Shown one piece after another: positions 2,865 through 8,283 of a stretch of DNA of 41,089 nt (within the stretch, counting starts at the first letter, position 1; the number at the start of each line of letters is the position of its first letter). A model generated the notes under the pieces. That model was given only the letters and a program-made list of their open reading frames with translations, searched no databases and had not been told where the DNA came from. Source of the DNA: Bacteroidota bacterium (GTDB taxonomy: Bacteria > Bacteroidota > Bacteroidia > Bacteroidales > UBA5342); NCBI GenBank assembly GCA_003249935.1, contig QKHT01000087.1, forward strand, positions 1 to 41,089. The letters are read 5' to 3'. The position numbers and the translations under genes are program-made.

Positions 2865-2891
2865 GTTTTGAACCGAAAAGCGTTACCTTTG
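2862..2891 (+). promoter_or_regulatory. Promoter of the ars operon
   Basis: TTTG (2862-2865), an 18-base spacer and TACCTTTG (2884-2891) match the Bacteroidota -33/-7 consensus. Transcription would begin near 2896-2898, inside the inverted repeat described next and only some 17 bases before the arsR start codon. Confidence 0.7.
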
Positions 2892-2914
2892 TTCGTAATT
2901 CTACGAACTACGAA
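2892..2914 (+). promoter_or_regulatory. Probable ArsR operator
   Basis: TTCGTA-N4-TACGAA (2892-2907) is a perfect inverted repeat of the kind ArsR/SmtB repressors bind. A second copy of the right half, TACGAA (2909-2914), runs into the start codon. The site covers the expected transcription start, so bound repressor would block initiation directly. Confidence 0.65.
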
Positions 2915-3240
2915 TGGAAACCATCATTTTTACATCAGAACAAGAAAAAACAGCACGCTACGCCCGTGCATTGGGGCATCCGGTAAGGGTGTACATTTTG
3001 GAACTGCTATCGCAACAAACCTGCTGTTACAGCGGAAATCTGAGCGATATTCTGCCGGTGGCCAAATCCACACTATCGCAACATCTTAAAGAGCTGAAAT
3101 CGGCCGGACTCATTCAGGGCGAAATCGAAGGTCCCAAAATAAGGTATTGCCTGAACCGCGACAACTGGCAGGAAGCCAAAATGCTGATGACGGCGCTTTT
3201 TGCGGTTCAACCAAAAGACGAAAATTGTAACACATTATAA
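2914..3240 (+). CDS. arsR: ArsR/SmtB-family metalloid-responsive repressor
   Basis: A 108-residue winged-helix repressor and first gene of a six-gene operon. Helix-turn-helix residues of about 41-66 contain a recognition helix of the form STLSQHLKELKSAGLI, and the wing is near residues 70-80. A vicinal pair C37-C38 sits where classical ArsR proteins carry metal-binding cysteines (ELCVCDL) and could bind a trivalent arsenical or sense thiol redox state. Length is normal for the family. The ATG at 2914 is the only start compatible with the promoter, which leaves a very short leader. Autoregulation is expected because the operator-like repeat overlaps the start site. The inducer is inferred, not shown. 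Confidence 0.88.
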   Translation: METIIFTSEQEKTARYARALGHPVRVYILELLSQQTCCYSGNLSDILPVAKSTLSQHLKELKSAGLIQGEIEGPKIRYCLNRDNWQEAKMLMTALFAVQPKDENCNTL

Positions 3241-3248
3241 AAAAACAC

Positions 3249-3488
3249 ATGATGGAAATAAAAATTTTAGGTACAGGCTGTGCAAAGTGTAAAACACTCG
3301 AAAAACTTACCCGCGATGTGGTGGCCGAAAACAACATTAACGCCAACATTACCAAGGTAGAAGATATTATGGACATTATGAAAATGGGCGTAATGGCCAC
3401 GCCGGCATTAGTGGTCGATGGCAAAATAGTAATGAAAGGGCGTCTGCCGTCGTCGGATGAGATAAAACAAATGATTTTAAATGCATAA
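3249..3488 (+). CDS. arsE: Small thioredoxin-like protein, ArsE candidate
   Basis: A 79-residue thioredoxin-fold protein of the TM0996/MTH895 'redox-active disulfide protein 2' type. The active site GCAKC (C11, C14) follows the first beta strand, and a cis-proline loop is seen as ATPALVVDG. There is no signal peptide, so it works in the cytoplasm. It starts 8 bases after arsR. In bacteria that resist nitroaromatic arsenicals, a protein of this kind precedes ArsF and ArsG and is called ArsE. I assign the name on the basis of order and family. An equally possible role is generic disulfide transfer to the neighbouring membrane proteins. Confidence 0.75.
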   Translation: MMEIKILGTGCAKCKTLEKLTRDVVAENNINANITKVEDIMDIMKMGVMATPALVVDGKIVMKGRLPSSDEIKQMILNA

Positions 3489-3500
3489 CAACTGTTTATC

Positions 3501-3911
3501 ATGAAAAAGCAACTCACCATATTACTCCTGATGGTTTTTTCGTTGGGTTCAATTACGGCCCAAAACGAACCAAAACCGGCTGCAATCAATACCATCGAAG
3601 TGTACTATTTTCACTTTACCCGCCGGTGTGTAACCTGCAATGCCGTAGAAACCGAAACGGTAAAAGCACTTAATACGCTTTACGCTAAGGAAATGGCAAA
3701 CAAAACAATCAAATTTACCACAGTAAATCTCGACGAAAAACAGAATAATGCATTGGCTAAAAAATGCAAAGCCGAAGGTCAGGCACTTTTAATTATAAGC
3801 AACAACACACGGACCGACCTCACCGAACAGGGTTTTATGTATGCCCGTTCGTCGCCCGAAAAGCTGCAAGCAGCCATAAAAGCAGCCATCGACAAGGTTC
3901 TGAAAAAGTAA
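3501..3911 (+). CDS. arsF: Exported thioredoxin-like protein, ArsF family
   Basis: A 136-residue protein with a signal peptide (residues 1-20, cleavage near TAQ), followed by a thioredoxin-like fold whose redox pair is C43-V-T-C46 in the segment RRCVTCNAVE. Later segments (KFTTVNLDEKQN, a basic C-terminal helix) fit the ArsF family, described as a nitrophenyl-compound nitroreductase subunit acting with ArsE. It begins 12 bases after arsE. The signal peptide places it in the periplasm or anchored to the membrane, opposite ArsE, with the CcdA-like ArsG between them. This layout suggests an electron or disulfide relay across the membrane. The family name is reasonably sure; the reaction is from memory of the family. 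Confidence 0.75.
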   Translation: MKKQLTILLLMVFSLGSITAQNEPKPAAINTIEVYYFHFTRRCVTCNAVETETVKALNTLYAKEMANKTIKFTTVNLDEKQNNALAKKCKAEGQALLIISNNTRTDLTEQGFMYARSSPEKLQAAIKAAIDKVLKK

Positions 3912-3918
3912 GAACAGC

Positions 3919-4620
3919 ATGAATTTTCTGCAACAGATTCTCGAAAATTCGCCGTACGCTTTTGTCACAGCCATAGTGCTCGGACTCATGACCGCTATTA
4001 GTCCGTGCCCGTTGGCTACCAACATTACGGCTATCGGGTTTATAGGCCGACACATAGAAAACCGGCGGCGGGTGTTTATTAGTGGTTTGGTATATACGCT
4101 GGGCCGCGCCATAAGCTATACCGGGCTTGCACTGCTTATTTATGCCGGAACCAGCAAAATGCACCTCTCAATGTTGTTTCAGGGTTGGGGCGAAAAGTTG
4201 CTGGGCCCGGTGATGATTGTCATTGGCCTGTTTATGCTTGATATGATTAAAATACCGTTTCCGGCACTGGCCAATCTCACCGAACGCATTGGACAAAAAG
4301 CACAAAACAGCTATTGGAGTACACTGCTTTTGGGAATGGCTTTTGCGCTGGCCTTTTGCCCGTACAGTGGTGTACTCTATTTTGCCATGCTCATTCCCAT
4401 TACGGTAAGTAGTGCGGGCGGACTCTATCTGCCCGTATTGTTTGCCATTGCCACAGGCGTTCCGGTAATAATTTTTGCATGGTTGCTGGCTTATGCCGTA
4501 GGCAATGTGGGTGTGCTTTACAGTCGCATAAAAACATTCGAACTTTGGTTCCGGCGCATTGTGGCCACGCTGTTCGTAAGCGTGGGTATTTACTACGTCG
4601 TTATATTTTTCGTTAATTAA
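3919..4620 (+). CDS. arsG: CcdA/DsbD-like membrane protein, ArsG family permease
   Basis: A 233-residue polytopic membrane protein with six probable transmembrane segments, related to the CcdA/DsbD transmembrane domain. Two cysteines lie next to prolines in transmembrane segments: C30 (AISPCPLATN) and C147 (LAFCPYSG). These are the positions that carry electrons across the membrane in CcdA. The ArsG branch has been assigned to efflux of trivalent aminobenzyl arsenicals. It lies 7 bases after arsF and 11 before the ferredoxin-like gene. Either efflux, or delivery of cytosolic reducing power to ArsF, would fit the cysteine pair. I cannot choose between them from the sequence. Confidence 0.75.
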   Translation: MNFLQQILENSPYAFVTAIVLGLMTAISPCPLATNITAIGFIGRHIENRRRVFISGLVYTLGRAISYTGLALLIYAGTSKMHLSMLFQGWGEKLLGPVMIVIGLFMLDMIKIPFPALANLTERIGQKAQNSYWSTLLLGMAFALAFCPYSGVLYFAMLIPITVSSAGGLYLPVLFAIATGVPVIIFAWLLAYAVGNVGVLYSRIKTFELWFRRIVATLFVSVGIYYVVIFFVN

Positions 4621-4631
4621 CCGCACAAAAT

Positions 4632-4859
4632 ATGGATCCAATCATTTGTTACTGCAACAACGTGGCTCAATCGACCATCGAAAAAGCCATTGCCGATGGG
4701 GCCAAAACATTAGCCGACATTCGCACCACAACCACTGCCGGCGATGGCAACAATTGCAAAAAAATGCATCCGAAAGGCATTTGCTGTACCGGCGACATCA
4801 AACGGATACTCAACAATAAAAAAAGTAACGAATCGGGCCATTGCAGCTGTTGCTCATAA
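4632..4859 (+). CDS. BFD-like [2Fe-2S]-binding protein with cysteine-rich tail
   Basis: A 75-residue protein of the bacterioferritin-associated-ferredoxin-like type. CYC at residues 7-9 opens the domain, and NNCKKMHPKGICC supplies the later cysteines that complete a [2Fe-2S] site; the spacing is a variant of the classical C-x-C...C-x2-C. The last seven residues, GHCSCCS, add three more cysteines that the BFD fold does not need and that could bind a metalloid. It sits inside the ars operon, 10 bases before the permease start. A role in passing electrons to ArsE/ArsG or in handling arsenic is inferred from position only. Confidence 0.7.
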   Translation: MDPIICYCNNVAQSTIEKAIADGAKTLADIRTTTTAGDGNNCKKMHPKGICCTGDIKRILNNKKSNESGHCSCCS

Positions 4860-4869
4860 CACAAATAAA

Positions 4870-5889
4870 ATGACAAACACAAAACTATTTGGTATTCCGA
4901 TAATTATACTCACGTTACTGCTCACGCTATATCATTTTTTACAGCCTTTAACCAATTGGCTAATAGATTCGGTACTGAACCTCGAAAAAGGGTCGCATTT
5001 AACTGAGGCCATCCGATTCTTTGTTTTCGAGTTTCCCAAAGTAATGATTTTGCTCACAATCATTATCTTTTTTGTGGGTATTATTCGTACATTTTTTACG
5101 GCCGAACGCACCCGCAAAGCACTCGAAGGCAAAAAAACCTTTACGGGCAACGTTATGGCTGCATCGCTGGGCATTGTTACGCCATTTTGCTCCTGCTCGG
5201 CCATCCCGCTCTTTTTGGGTTTTGTTGAATCGGGTGTACCACTGAGCGTTACGTTTTCGTTTCTGATTGCGGCCCCAATGATTAACGAAGTGGCTATTAT
5301 TTTGCTCTATGGCCTCTTTGGGTGGCAAGTAGCGGCCATTTATGTGGGTACAGGATTAATGGTCGCCATTGTGGCAGGCTATTTAATTGGCAAGTTGAAA
5401 CTCGAAAAATGGGTAGAACCCTGGGTATATGCCGTAGAAATGGGCGATACCGGTTCAACCGAAAACAAAATAAACCTCGAAAGCCGCATTACGCAAGGTT
5501 ACGAGGCCGTAAAAGAAATTGTATCCAAAGTTTGGCTTTATGTGGCATTGGGCATTTTGGTCGGTGCCGGCGCACATGGTTATGTACCCGAAGATTTTAT
5601 GGCCGCGCTCATGGGCAAATCGGCCTGGTATTCGGTGCCATTGTCCATTCTCATTGGTATTCCGCTCTATTCCAACGCCGCAGGTATTGTACCCATTGTT
5701 TCGGTACTCATCGAAAAGGGGGCCTCATTGGGCACTGCGCTGGCATTTATGATGTCGGTAATCGGCCTCTCGTTGCCCGAAATGGTTATCCTGCGTAAAG
5801 TGCTTAAAATGCCACTTATCATTACATTTATCGCCATTGTGGGCTCGGGCATCATGCTGGTGGGGTTCTTGTTTAACTTTCTTATGTAG
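4870..5889 (+). CDS. arsP: ArsP-type permease (DUF318/PF03773)
   Basis: A 339-residue membrane protein with about eight transmembrane segments and the DUF318 permease signature. The key motif is TPFCSCSAIPLF with C107 and C109. Residues further on (AAPMINEVA, and a second half containing IPLYSNAAGIVP) fit the family. Characterised ArsP proteins export trivalent organoarsenicals such as methylarsenite and reduced roxarsone. An upstream in-frame extension exists to 4744, but it overlaps the ferredoxin gene and encodes a basic non-membrane stretch, so the ATG at 4870 is preferred. It is the last gene of the operon, with a hairpin behind it. Confidence 0.82.
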   Translation: MTNTKLFGIPIIILTLLLTLYHFLQPLTNWLIDSVLNLEKGSHLTEAIRFFVFEFPKVMILLTIIIFFVGIIRTFFTAERTRKALEGKKTFTGNVMAASLGIVTPFCSCSAIPLFLGFVESGVPLSVTFSFLIAAPMINEVAIILLYGLFGWQVAAIYVGTGLMVAIVAGYLIGKLKLEKWVEPWVYAVEMGDTGSTENKINLESRITQGYEAVKEIVSKVWLYVALGILVGAGAHGYVPEDFMAALMGKSAWYSVPLSILIGIPLYSNAAGIVPIVSVLIEKGASLGTALAFMMSVIGLSLPEMVILRKVLKMPLIITFIAIVGSGIMLVGFLFNFLM

Positions 5890-5917: not shown

Positions 5918-5952
5918 TGGCTGAACCATGGGTGCACCGGTTCAGCCATTTA
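5918..5952 (+). terminator. Terminator of the ars operon
   Basis: A perfect 10-bp stem (5918-5927 with 5939-5948) encloses an 11-base loop and is followed by a short T/A tract. The T tract is weak, so termination may be incomplete. Confidence 0.6.
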
Positions 5953-7551: not shown

Positions 7552-7861
7552 ATGAAAATGCTTTTTCTTTGCACGGGCAACAGTTGCCGCAGCCCAATGG
7601 CCCATGGCTTTTTACAATTGTTCGATGCACGCATAACGGTTTGTTCAAAAATATTTGGCTGAACCTTGGGATTACGTCATTACCGTTTGTGGCGATGCCA
7701 ACGAAGTCGGCCGTGCTTTCTTTGGCACAGTAACCCACCGGTTACACATGGGCTCCGATGATCCGAGCCAGACCATCGGTACCGACGATTTTATATGGTG
7801 TGAGTTGATGCGTGTGCGCGACGAAATTAAGGCAGGATTTTACGAAATTTACAACAAATAA
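7552..7861 (+). pseudogene. arsC: Broken arsenate reductase (low-molecular-weight phosphatase type)
   Basis: The 5' piece, from ATG 7552 to a TGA at 7660, encodes the start of a thioredoxin-coupled arsenate reductase, including the catalytic loop CTGNSCRS, then runs into a stop. The 3' piece, in the next frame and readable from about 7637 to the stop at 7861, encodes the other end: QKYLAEPWDYVITVCG, then HRLHMGSDDP and RVRDEIKAGFYEIY. The two join near 7637. About 33 codons that normally lie between them (the AG...P...GIDI...HTSK region) are missing, and the frame is shifted. The second redox cysteine of the ANENC motif is also replaced (ANEVG). The gene is therefore dead unless the junction is a sequencing or assembly error. 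Its promoter and the following gene are intact. Confidence 0.82.
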
Positions 7862-7875
7862 ATAAAGACACAACG

Positions 7876-8283
7876 ATGAATCAAGGAGATAAAGCGGTAG
7901 AATATTTCTGTAACGGAAACAACTGTGCCCAATCGGTTCTTGCAGCTTGCAACCGAAATCCCGAAGTTTCGGAAGCAGCCTGTTTGCGTATAGCCTCTGC
8001 ATTTGGTGCAGGCATAGCACGCCGGCAACTCACCTGCGGTGCGGTAACCGGCGCACTAATGGCCATTGGATTACAGTATGATAAAGCCGAACTACTATCC
8101 AAATCCAAAATCCTGATACACCAGTTTATTGAGATTAATGGATCCATCAACTGCAAAACATTGCTTAAAGAATTCGACATAAACGACCCCGATGACTACA
8201 AAATAATGGTCGACGAAAAAATGTTCGACACTTATTGCCAAAAGTACGTCCGCGATGCAGCCAATTTGTTAGAAAAGCTCTGA
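7876..8283 (+). CDS. C_GCAxxG_C_C family redox-active protein
   Basis: A 135-residue cysteine-rich cytoplasmic protein. The signature NNCAQSVL (C17), then FGAGIARRQLTCGAVTGALMAIGL (C54), then NGSINC (C93) and a late C121 before VRDAANLL fit the C_GCAxxG_C_C family. One feature is unusual: the glycine-rich stretch reads FGAGIARRQ rather than the more common FGGG..R.G. No function has been assigned to the family that I can name. It begins 14 bases after the broken arsC and probably shares its promoter. A role in arsenic or thiol chemistry is suggested only by this position. Confidence 0.8.
   Translation: MNQGDKAVEYFCNGNNCAQSVLAACNRNPEVSEAACLRIASAFGAGIARRQLTCGAVTGALMAIGLQYDKAELLSKSKILIHQFIEINGSINCKTLLKEFDINDPDDYKIMVDEKMFDTYCQKYVRDAANLLEKL

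Follow-up and report, generated by a model that had tools for sequence, protein, structure and literature searches.

Organisation of the Operon

The DNA stretch analysed (hereafter, the window) comprises 41,089 nucleotides, positions 1 to 41,089 of the forward strand of contig QKHT01000087.1, from the GenBank assembly GCA_003249935.1 of a Bacteroidota bacterium (Bacteroidales, UBA5342). It contains a six-gene operon with the order arsR-arsE-arsF-arsG-iron-sulphur gene-arsP, where a gene for a small protein resembling the N-terminal [2Fe-2S] domain of CopZ lies between arsG and the gene of an ArsP_1 permease. All six open reading frames (ORFs) are located on the plus strand between positions 2914 and 5889 and are separated by gaps of 11, 12, 7, 11 and 10 bases, in agreement with the initial annotation, which had described six closely spaced genes served by one promoter and one operator (Table 1). 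The arrangement is not a product of chance, since 19 other loci show the same order. A hairpin whose arms have 9 bases each (5919–5927 and 5939–5947), read by eye, is located 3' of arsP.

The operator is of a recurrent type: the sequence TTCG-N6..8-CGAA was found upstream of 66 of the 78 related arsR genes, compared with 0.27% of shuffled upstream regions, and it is present in 20 of the 22 iron-sulphur loci with arsR in view. The motif TAnnTTTG, which we take to be the −7 consensus of Bacteroidota, occurs in 60 of the same 78 upstream regions, touching or just preceding the operator in 53 of the 78. The related repressors all contain Cys38 and Cys79 (78/78), and most of them contain Cys37 (60/78). 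This conserved inverted repeat and the invariant ArsR cysteines give good support to a common operator and a regulator that bears cysteines.

Table 1. Control elements and genes of the operon, and the arsC remnant outside it. Bit scores are followed by the cut-off of the model.
Feature	Positions	Strand	Description	Match
−7 promoter element	2884–2891	+	TACCTTTG, Bacteroidota type	TAnnTTTG
Operator, probable ArsR site	2891–2908	.	Perfect inverted repeat GTTCGTAATTCTACGAAC before arsR (arms GTTCGTA and TACGAAC around ATTC)	
arsR	2914–3240	+	ArsR/SmtB-type repressor, 108 aa, Cys37, Cys38, Cys79	NF033788, 61.2 bits (55)
arsE	3252–3488	+	Putative cytosolic thioredoxin-like protein, CxxC	TIGR00412, 119.1 bits (62)
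arsF	3501–3911	+	Putative exported thioredoxin-like protein, CxxC	NF040494, 107.7 bits (60)
arsG	3919–4620	+	CcdA/DsbD-like membrane protein, Cys30 and Cys147	NF040495, 296.1 bits (200); DsbD_2, 1.1e-19
Iron-sulphur gene	4632–4859	+	75 aa, predicted CopZ-N-type [2Fe-2S] domain, CSCC tail	Fer2_BFD PF04324, 38.6 bits (26)
arsP	4870–5889	+	ArsP_1 permease, 339 aa, TPFCSC motif	PF03773, 238.1 bits (32.3)
arsC remnant (outside the operon)	7552–7860	+	Two frames, middle stretch missing	75% and 61% identity to L120 ArsC

Identity of the Iron-Sulphur Protein

The iron-sulphur protein contains the cysteine pattern CxC-x33-C-x8-CC (Cys6, Cys8, Cys42, Cys51 and Cys52), followed by the C-terminal CSCC. 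A PDB search ranked the N-terminal domain of Archaeoglobus fulgidus CopZ (CopZ-NT, PDB code 2HU9) first, both for the single sequence (E-value 0.002) and for the family profile (6.3e-8), Bfd structures standing behind CopZ-NT in the profile search (about 1e-4). The predicted model of the protein, with a predicted local distance difference test (pLDDT) score of 84, gave the same best match in Foldseek (probability 1.00, 1.7 Å over 55 columns, E-value 0.04), with Bfd next. Pairwise alignment to 2HU9 placed Cys6, Cys8, Cys42 and Cys51/52 on Cys75, Cys77, Cys109 and Cys118/119 of CopZ, which we take to be the cluster ligands. By its cysteines and predicted fold, the protein is a match to the CopZ N-terminal [2Fe-2S] domain; it is not a full CopZ, since only Fer2_BFD, and neither HMA nor zf_CopZ, was matched within the 75 residues. 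The name "BFD-like", given in the initial annotation, stands at the Pfam level (Fer2_BFD) and not beyond it, the cysteine pattern being that of the CopZ domain. The identification as a true Bfd was rejected, as the protein has CxC-x33-C-x8-CC with no second CxxC pair, unlike the ligand pattern of Bfd, CxC ... CxxC, and the Bfd structures rank below CopZ-NT. A cysteine is common at position 37 in the family, and the window protein has a glycine there; of the 23 iron-sulphur proteins encoded in operons with arsP, 18 have the cysteine-rich tail.

Related domains occur in other forms. L109 (5004–5483) and L110 (4986–5480) encode proteins of about 160 aa with the same CxC-C-CC domain, and no match of the five ars profiles was found near them. 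L138 (4924–5160) encodes a Peptacetobacter relative of the iron-sulphur protein in which an in-frame TGA takes the place of the first CC-pair cysteine and is followed by a cysteine codon, a possible selenocysteine site; a comparable GxUC form is listed in the accessible part of the review PMC13188914.

Distribution of the Gene and of the Gene Order

The full six-gene order was found in 20 loci of 19 genomes, the window included, so that the check for the same order in other Bacteroidota, suggested with the first description of the operon, was positive. One metagenome-assembled genome contains two full-order copies (L118 and L119), and one named strain, Prolixibacter denitrificans DSM 27267 (L127), has the full set. 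Incomplete versions comprise arsG-iron-sulphur gene-arsP at a contig edge (L117) and arsR-arsE-iron-sulphur gene-arsP without arsF and arsG (L102 and L130). All 23 operonic loci, defined as those in which gene and permease belong to a single run, come from Bacteroidota, as judged from record titles or from relatedness to the window's genome. Wherever the iron-sulphur gene stands beside arsG, it occupies the same slot (21/21). Second copies L114, L115, L123 and L129 (of L104, L105, L103 and L102, respectively) were removed before locus counts, and the set of 31 loci encoding the short protein omits L051 with its whole CopZ, L084 and L085, whose proteins are Bfd-like, and L109 and L110, whose proteins are longer.

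A motif scan of one genome per species, covering 84,980 species, revealed 26 loci, four of which repeat loci already in the collection; five of the scanned loci (L134–L138) have no such operon and L139 has a different arsenic arrangement. These 26 loci do not constitute an unbiased sample, because the scan motifs came from the family itself, and the unbiased frequencies are those from a sample of 393 genomes of the window's order. ArsG, with presence called at E <= 1e-40, was found in 210 of the 393 genomes. The short iron-sulphur protein was detected in 8 of them with the family profile at 69 bits or more; below this value were longer proteins (57), the CopZ of L051 (49) and then, for the most part, short alignments covering the first ~40 profile positions. 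The gene lies between arsG and arsP in the window genome and in G707, G895, G899, G919 and G728; G869 has arsR-arsE-iron-sulphur gene-arsP with arsG elsewhere, and in G1014 the gene is located away from ars genes. On the ArsG tree, the presence of the gene requires 9 changes, of which starred branches force at least 3; on the ArsP tree, it requires 8, with at least 4 forced. Searches among plasmids did not turn up a helpful relative for the iron-sulphur gene; two Paraclostridium sordellii records came up, and no ars gene is among the annotated neighbours in one of them.

Two views of the gene were rejected. It is not a one-off of the window genome, since the order recurs across loci, nor is it a universal component of arsEFG operons, the motif and profile scans having found it in few of them.

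The Thiol Proteins ArsE, ArsF and ArsG

Among the collected loci, the first cysteine of the ArsE CxxC motif is present in 86 of 86 proteins and the second in 85, and a hydrophobic N-terminus was found in 3 of the 86. The ArsF proteins have CxxC in 83 of 83 cases and a hydrophobic N-terminus in 81; L016 and L083, which lack one, have long ORFs (188 and 207 aa) in which translation may begin at an internal start. The N-terminus was judged with a hydropathy measure (first 45 residues for ArsF, first 30 start positions for ArsE), not a signal-peptide predictor. Cys30 and Cys147 of ArsG are conserved in 89 of 89 proteins. The low-confidence predicted model of ArsG (pLDDT 60) had CcdA (PDB code 5VKV) as its best PDB match (probability 0.96, E-value 0.16), the next among the matches listed having probabilities of 0.30 or less. 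These counts support the initial annotation, which had described a cytosolic thioredoxin-like protein, an exported CxxC protein and a CcdA-like membrane protein with two intramembrane cysteines.

Together, ArsE, ArsG and ArsF have the predicted anatomy of a split DsbD, namely, a cytosolic thioredoxin, a membrane carrier and an exported thioredoxin. The NCBI model names are different, describing ArsG as an efflux permease and ArsF as the subunit of a nitroreductase. Decaying copies of the arsEFG-arsP operon were also seen within the class of the window (L024 and L015), where ArsG is interrupted by several stops in G185 and by one in G039.

The Permease and the Possible Partner of the Iron-Sulphur Protein

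The CxC motif is present in 81 of 81 ArsP proteins. The accessible part of PMC4435449 distinguishes ArsP clusters 1 and 2 by motifs next to a C(S/T)C motif, and the window ArsP can be placed in cluster 2, because TPF precedes its C(S/T)C motif. The same TPF (cluster 2) is found in 20 of the 23 operonic loci and LAV (cluster 1) in 3 (L106, L126 and L128). The nearest named permease models of NCBIfam, SaoE and SO_0444 (Cu/Zn), scored below their cut-offs with the window protein (119.4 of 325 and 99.7 of 300, respectively). In L105 (3059–5626), a second ArsP and a second ArsR follow in tandem right behind the six-gene set.

In the 31 loci with the short protein, the gene is located directly before an ArsP_1 permease in 23 and directly after arsG in 21, and none of the 31 has it beside arsG without a permease. 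L102 and L130, which have no arsG, keep the permease beside the iron-sulphur gene. For the 88 ArsG loci, a permease was found within 1.5 kb in all 21 that have the iron-sulphur gene versus 51 of the 67 that lack it (Fisher p 0.0098; 0.018 without L060 and L156; neither value is corrected for kinship). These counts are based on matches above 250 bits, with the split or decayed L015, L023 and L024 and the distant L139 left out and L051 put in a class of its own, "copz"; in L060 and L156 the sequence stops immediately behind arsG, and these two were treated as having no permease in the former p value and were dropped from the latter and from the kinship-aware test. In L051 (6967–7620, minus strand), a whole CopZ (HMA, zf_CopZ and Fer2_BFD) is encoded directly before an arsP-arsE-arsF-arsG run, the ArsG of which groups with that of L047.

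Because 21 of the 23 operons have the gene beside both, the preference for ArsP over ArsG depends on L102, L130 and L051. On this comparison of gene neighbourhoods, ArsP would be, by a modest margin, the likelier partner of the iron-sulphur protein, with ArsE second. With the same modest margin, metalloid handling appears to be the trade of the iron-sulphur domain, without strict arsenic specificity.

Arsenic Setting

Among the 23 loci that have both gene and permease, 7 contain relatives of ArsC, Acr3 or ArsM; among the 67 ArsG loci that lack the gene, 25 do. The neighbours were searched for with phmmer within the stretches read, using L120 and L139 queries at E <= 1e-15; the Acr3 of L120 and the ArsM of L139 are above the NCBIfam cut-offs, and the ArsC of L120 is below (136 of 174). 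The window is one of the 7 loci because of the broken arsC (Table 1), 1.7 kb downstream of the operon, which probably comes from the same former arsenic island as the operon, and an acr3 above cut-off is located elsewhere in the genome (contig C21). A different arrangement is seen outside Bacteroidota in L139 (1314–9402, Sedimentisphaerales), encoding ArsR, a long ArsP, ArsM, Acr3, ArsE, the iron-sulphur protein, an FmdE-like protein and a distant ArsG-like protein, with the iron-sulphur gene coming after arsE. A plasmid of Prevotella nigrescens has an arsFG relative followed by genes annotated as arsC and ACR3. The arsenic context assumed at the outset is supported by the 7 loci and by L139, where arsM and acr3 lie close to the iron-sulphur gene.

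Right behind the arsC remnant, positions 7876–8280 of the window encode a C_GCAxxG_C_C redox protein (PF09719, 90 bits), a relative of which occurs in only 2 others of the 107 loci compared (L009 and L106).

Proposed Function and Alternative Explanations

A working scheme for the operon can be suggested. ArsE would hand thiol electrons from its cytosolic CxxC to Cys30/Cys147 of ArsG, which would carry them across the membrane to the CxxC of the exported ArsF. ArsP would export the trivalent arsenical, and the iron-sulphur protein, on the cytosolic side of ArsP, may serve as a redox-active metalloid chaperone, holding or reducing the arsenical and passing it to the CSC site of the permease. As a whole, an ArsR-controlled operon against thiol-binding arsenicals, combining the relay, export by ArsP and an iron-sulphur chaperone at ArsP, is proposed tentatively, from sequence comparisons, as a possible reading. 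Its parts are of different strength: arsenicals are very likely the substrates, organoarsenicals being the most likely ones; the electron relay ArsE to ArsG to ArsF is fairly probable; and the chaperone role at ArsP is a conceivable, weaker proposition. The more specific version, in which a [2Fe-2S] metalloid chaperone with a cysteine tail feeds organoarsenicals to ArsP beside a relay that keeps the periplasmic side reducing, would have to be called doubtful. A chaperone is favoured over a plain electron carrier because of the cysteine tail in 18 of the 23 operonic proteins and the kinship to CopZ.

Several observations weigh against this scheme. The iron-sulphur gene stands between arsG and arsP in 6 of the 210 arsG genomes. 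In all but two of the 23 operons, the iron-sulphur gene adjoins arsG as well as arsP, and the kinship-aware test of the gene-permease association had 3 independent pairs only, too few to decide. The tail is absent from 5 of the 23 proteins (L108, L128, L131, L132 and L133). The NCBIfam models Csac_0668 and CopZ_Nterm_CC scored far below cut-off with the iron-sulphur protein (35.4 of 190 and 22.9 of 100, respectively), both models spanning a protein longer than 75 aa. No ars gene is in view in L071, L107, L134, L136, L137 and L138, the view being cut by the contig end upstream in L134 and just downstream in L137, and the gene is not directly before the permease in L135 and L139. Caution on the chaperone is called for because of the tail-less members, the many operons without the gene and the fact that arsG is its other neighbour in 21 of 23; the iron-sulphur domain is not tied to arsenic, since 8 of the 31 loci have the gene not directly before a permease.

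The initial annotation had suggested that the iron-sulphur protein could take part in the relay; in this view, it would donate electrons to ArsE or ArsG, and the relay would reduce nitroaromatic or pentavalent arsenicals. In 21 of the 31 loci arsG immediately precedes the gene, and in L102, L130 and L139 arsE does; both positions fit such a donor, as do the BFD and CopZ-N domains, which are redox modules (2HU9 and Bfd matches), but membership in the relay is not well supported: L102 and L130 keep the gene and arsP without arsF and arsG, in none of the loci read does the gene adjoin arsG without a permease, few arsG genomes have it, and the whole CopZ of L051 adjoins arsP and not arsG. Moreover, ArsE itself has the CxxC that feeding a CcdA-like protein requires, and we consider an electron donor of this kind rather unlikely. 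It is quite unlikely that the protein is instead a cytosolic reductase, which by one-electron transfer would convert a pentavalent or nitroaromatic arsenical into the trivalent substrate of ArsP with no chaperoning. The [2Fe-2S] ligand pattern and the 5 operonic proteins with no tail to hold a metalloid are compatible with this idea, and ArsP is reported, in the accessible part of PMC6205960, not to extrude arsenite or pentavalent organoarsenicals; against these points stand the tail kept in the other 18, the unusual nature that a 75-residue ferredoxin-like domain would have as an enzyme, and the lack, judging by family matches, of an evident driving reductase among the six genes.

The ars names might also be misleading, the operon serving another thiophilic metal or metalloid (copper, mercury, antimony or organomercury). 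The nearest named permease models, both below cut-off, are SaoE and SO_0444, the iron-sulphur domain is CopZ-like, and no NCBIfam match above cut-off fixes the metal of the repressor. The combination of the iron-sulphur gene and arsP without ars genes, named in the initial annotation as evidence that would count against its reading, has one arguable instance, L135 (3689–7800, Oscillospiraceae), where the gene has a 2-hydroxyglutaryl-CoA dehydratase-type gene on one side and, 0.6 kb away on the other, an ArsP_1 permease, with no arsE, arsF or arsG in view. However, the ArsC, Acr3 or ArsM relatives in 7 of 23 and 25 of 67 loci, the arsC remnant of the window and the arsC and ACR3 genes behind the arsFG relative on the P. 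nigrescens plasmid all point to arsenic, and a different metal is very unlikely.

If the proposed scheme is right, it would add a redox-active helper to organoarsenical export and supply a genomic reason to re-examine the role of ArsG; the more specific version would make the iron-sulphur protein a counterpart to ArsD and would recast ArsG as an electron carrier instead of a pump. The arsG-bearing operons are common in the window's order (210 of 393 genomes), and the six-gene operon is amenable to testing because P. denitrificans DSM 27267, a named strain, has the full set.

Comparison with Known Systems

The ArsEFG system, attributed to Chen, Zhang and Rosen (2019), reportedly reduces nitroaromatic arsenicals and exports the amine. 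ArsE, ArsF and ArsG of the window are above the NCBIfam cut-offs, adjacent and in that order; the window operon differs in adding the iron-sulphur gene and arsP. Whereas the model names imply a permease and a nitroreductase subunit, the N-terminus of ArsF and the CcdA-like ArsG would fit a membrane thiol relay. The CopZ N-terminal [2Fe-2S] domain of A. fulgidus (2HU9) is said to have been described by Sazinsky et al. in 2007. The window protein shares its cysteine spacing and predicted fold, but it has no HMA or zf_CopZ match and ends in the CSCC tail.

The idea of a thiol relay is not new, having been raised in 2010: in the accessible text of Castillo and Saier (PMC2963123), CcdA, a thioredoxin and redox-active disulphide protein 2 are reported in ars operons, the same three kinds of protein as ArsG, ArsE and ArsF of the window taken together, and a DsbD-like electron flow is discussed, with the trio linked to ArsC and a transmembrane flow judged less likely. 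The term "iron-sulfur" is absent from the main text of that paper. The ArsP_1 domain and the C(S/T)C motif of the window permease are those of the methylarsenite permease family, as far as it is described in the accessible part of PMC4435449, but the window arsP sits behind an iron-sulphur gene.

The selenocysteine-assisted organometal (SAO) system, with its Csac_0668-type (seleno)proteins, is treated in the review PMC13188914; judging by the accessible part, it shares with the window a SaoE-like permease score and CopZ-N-like iron-sulphur relatives (CU/UC). The window scores for SaoE and Csac_0668 are, however, far below cut-off, and none of the six proteins received the name of any further SAO component.

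Searches of the open literature, judged by titles, beginnings of abstracts and selected passages among the papers listed, brought up no iron-sulphur gene within an arsEFG-arsP operon; papers beyond these lists and subscription papers, including the 2019 ArsEFG paper, are possible places of earlier mention. This comparison suggests that the ArsR-type repressor, ArsE, ArsF, ArsG and the ArsP_1 permease are of known kinds, and that the iron-sulphur gene in the slot before the permease is the new element of the operon.

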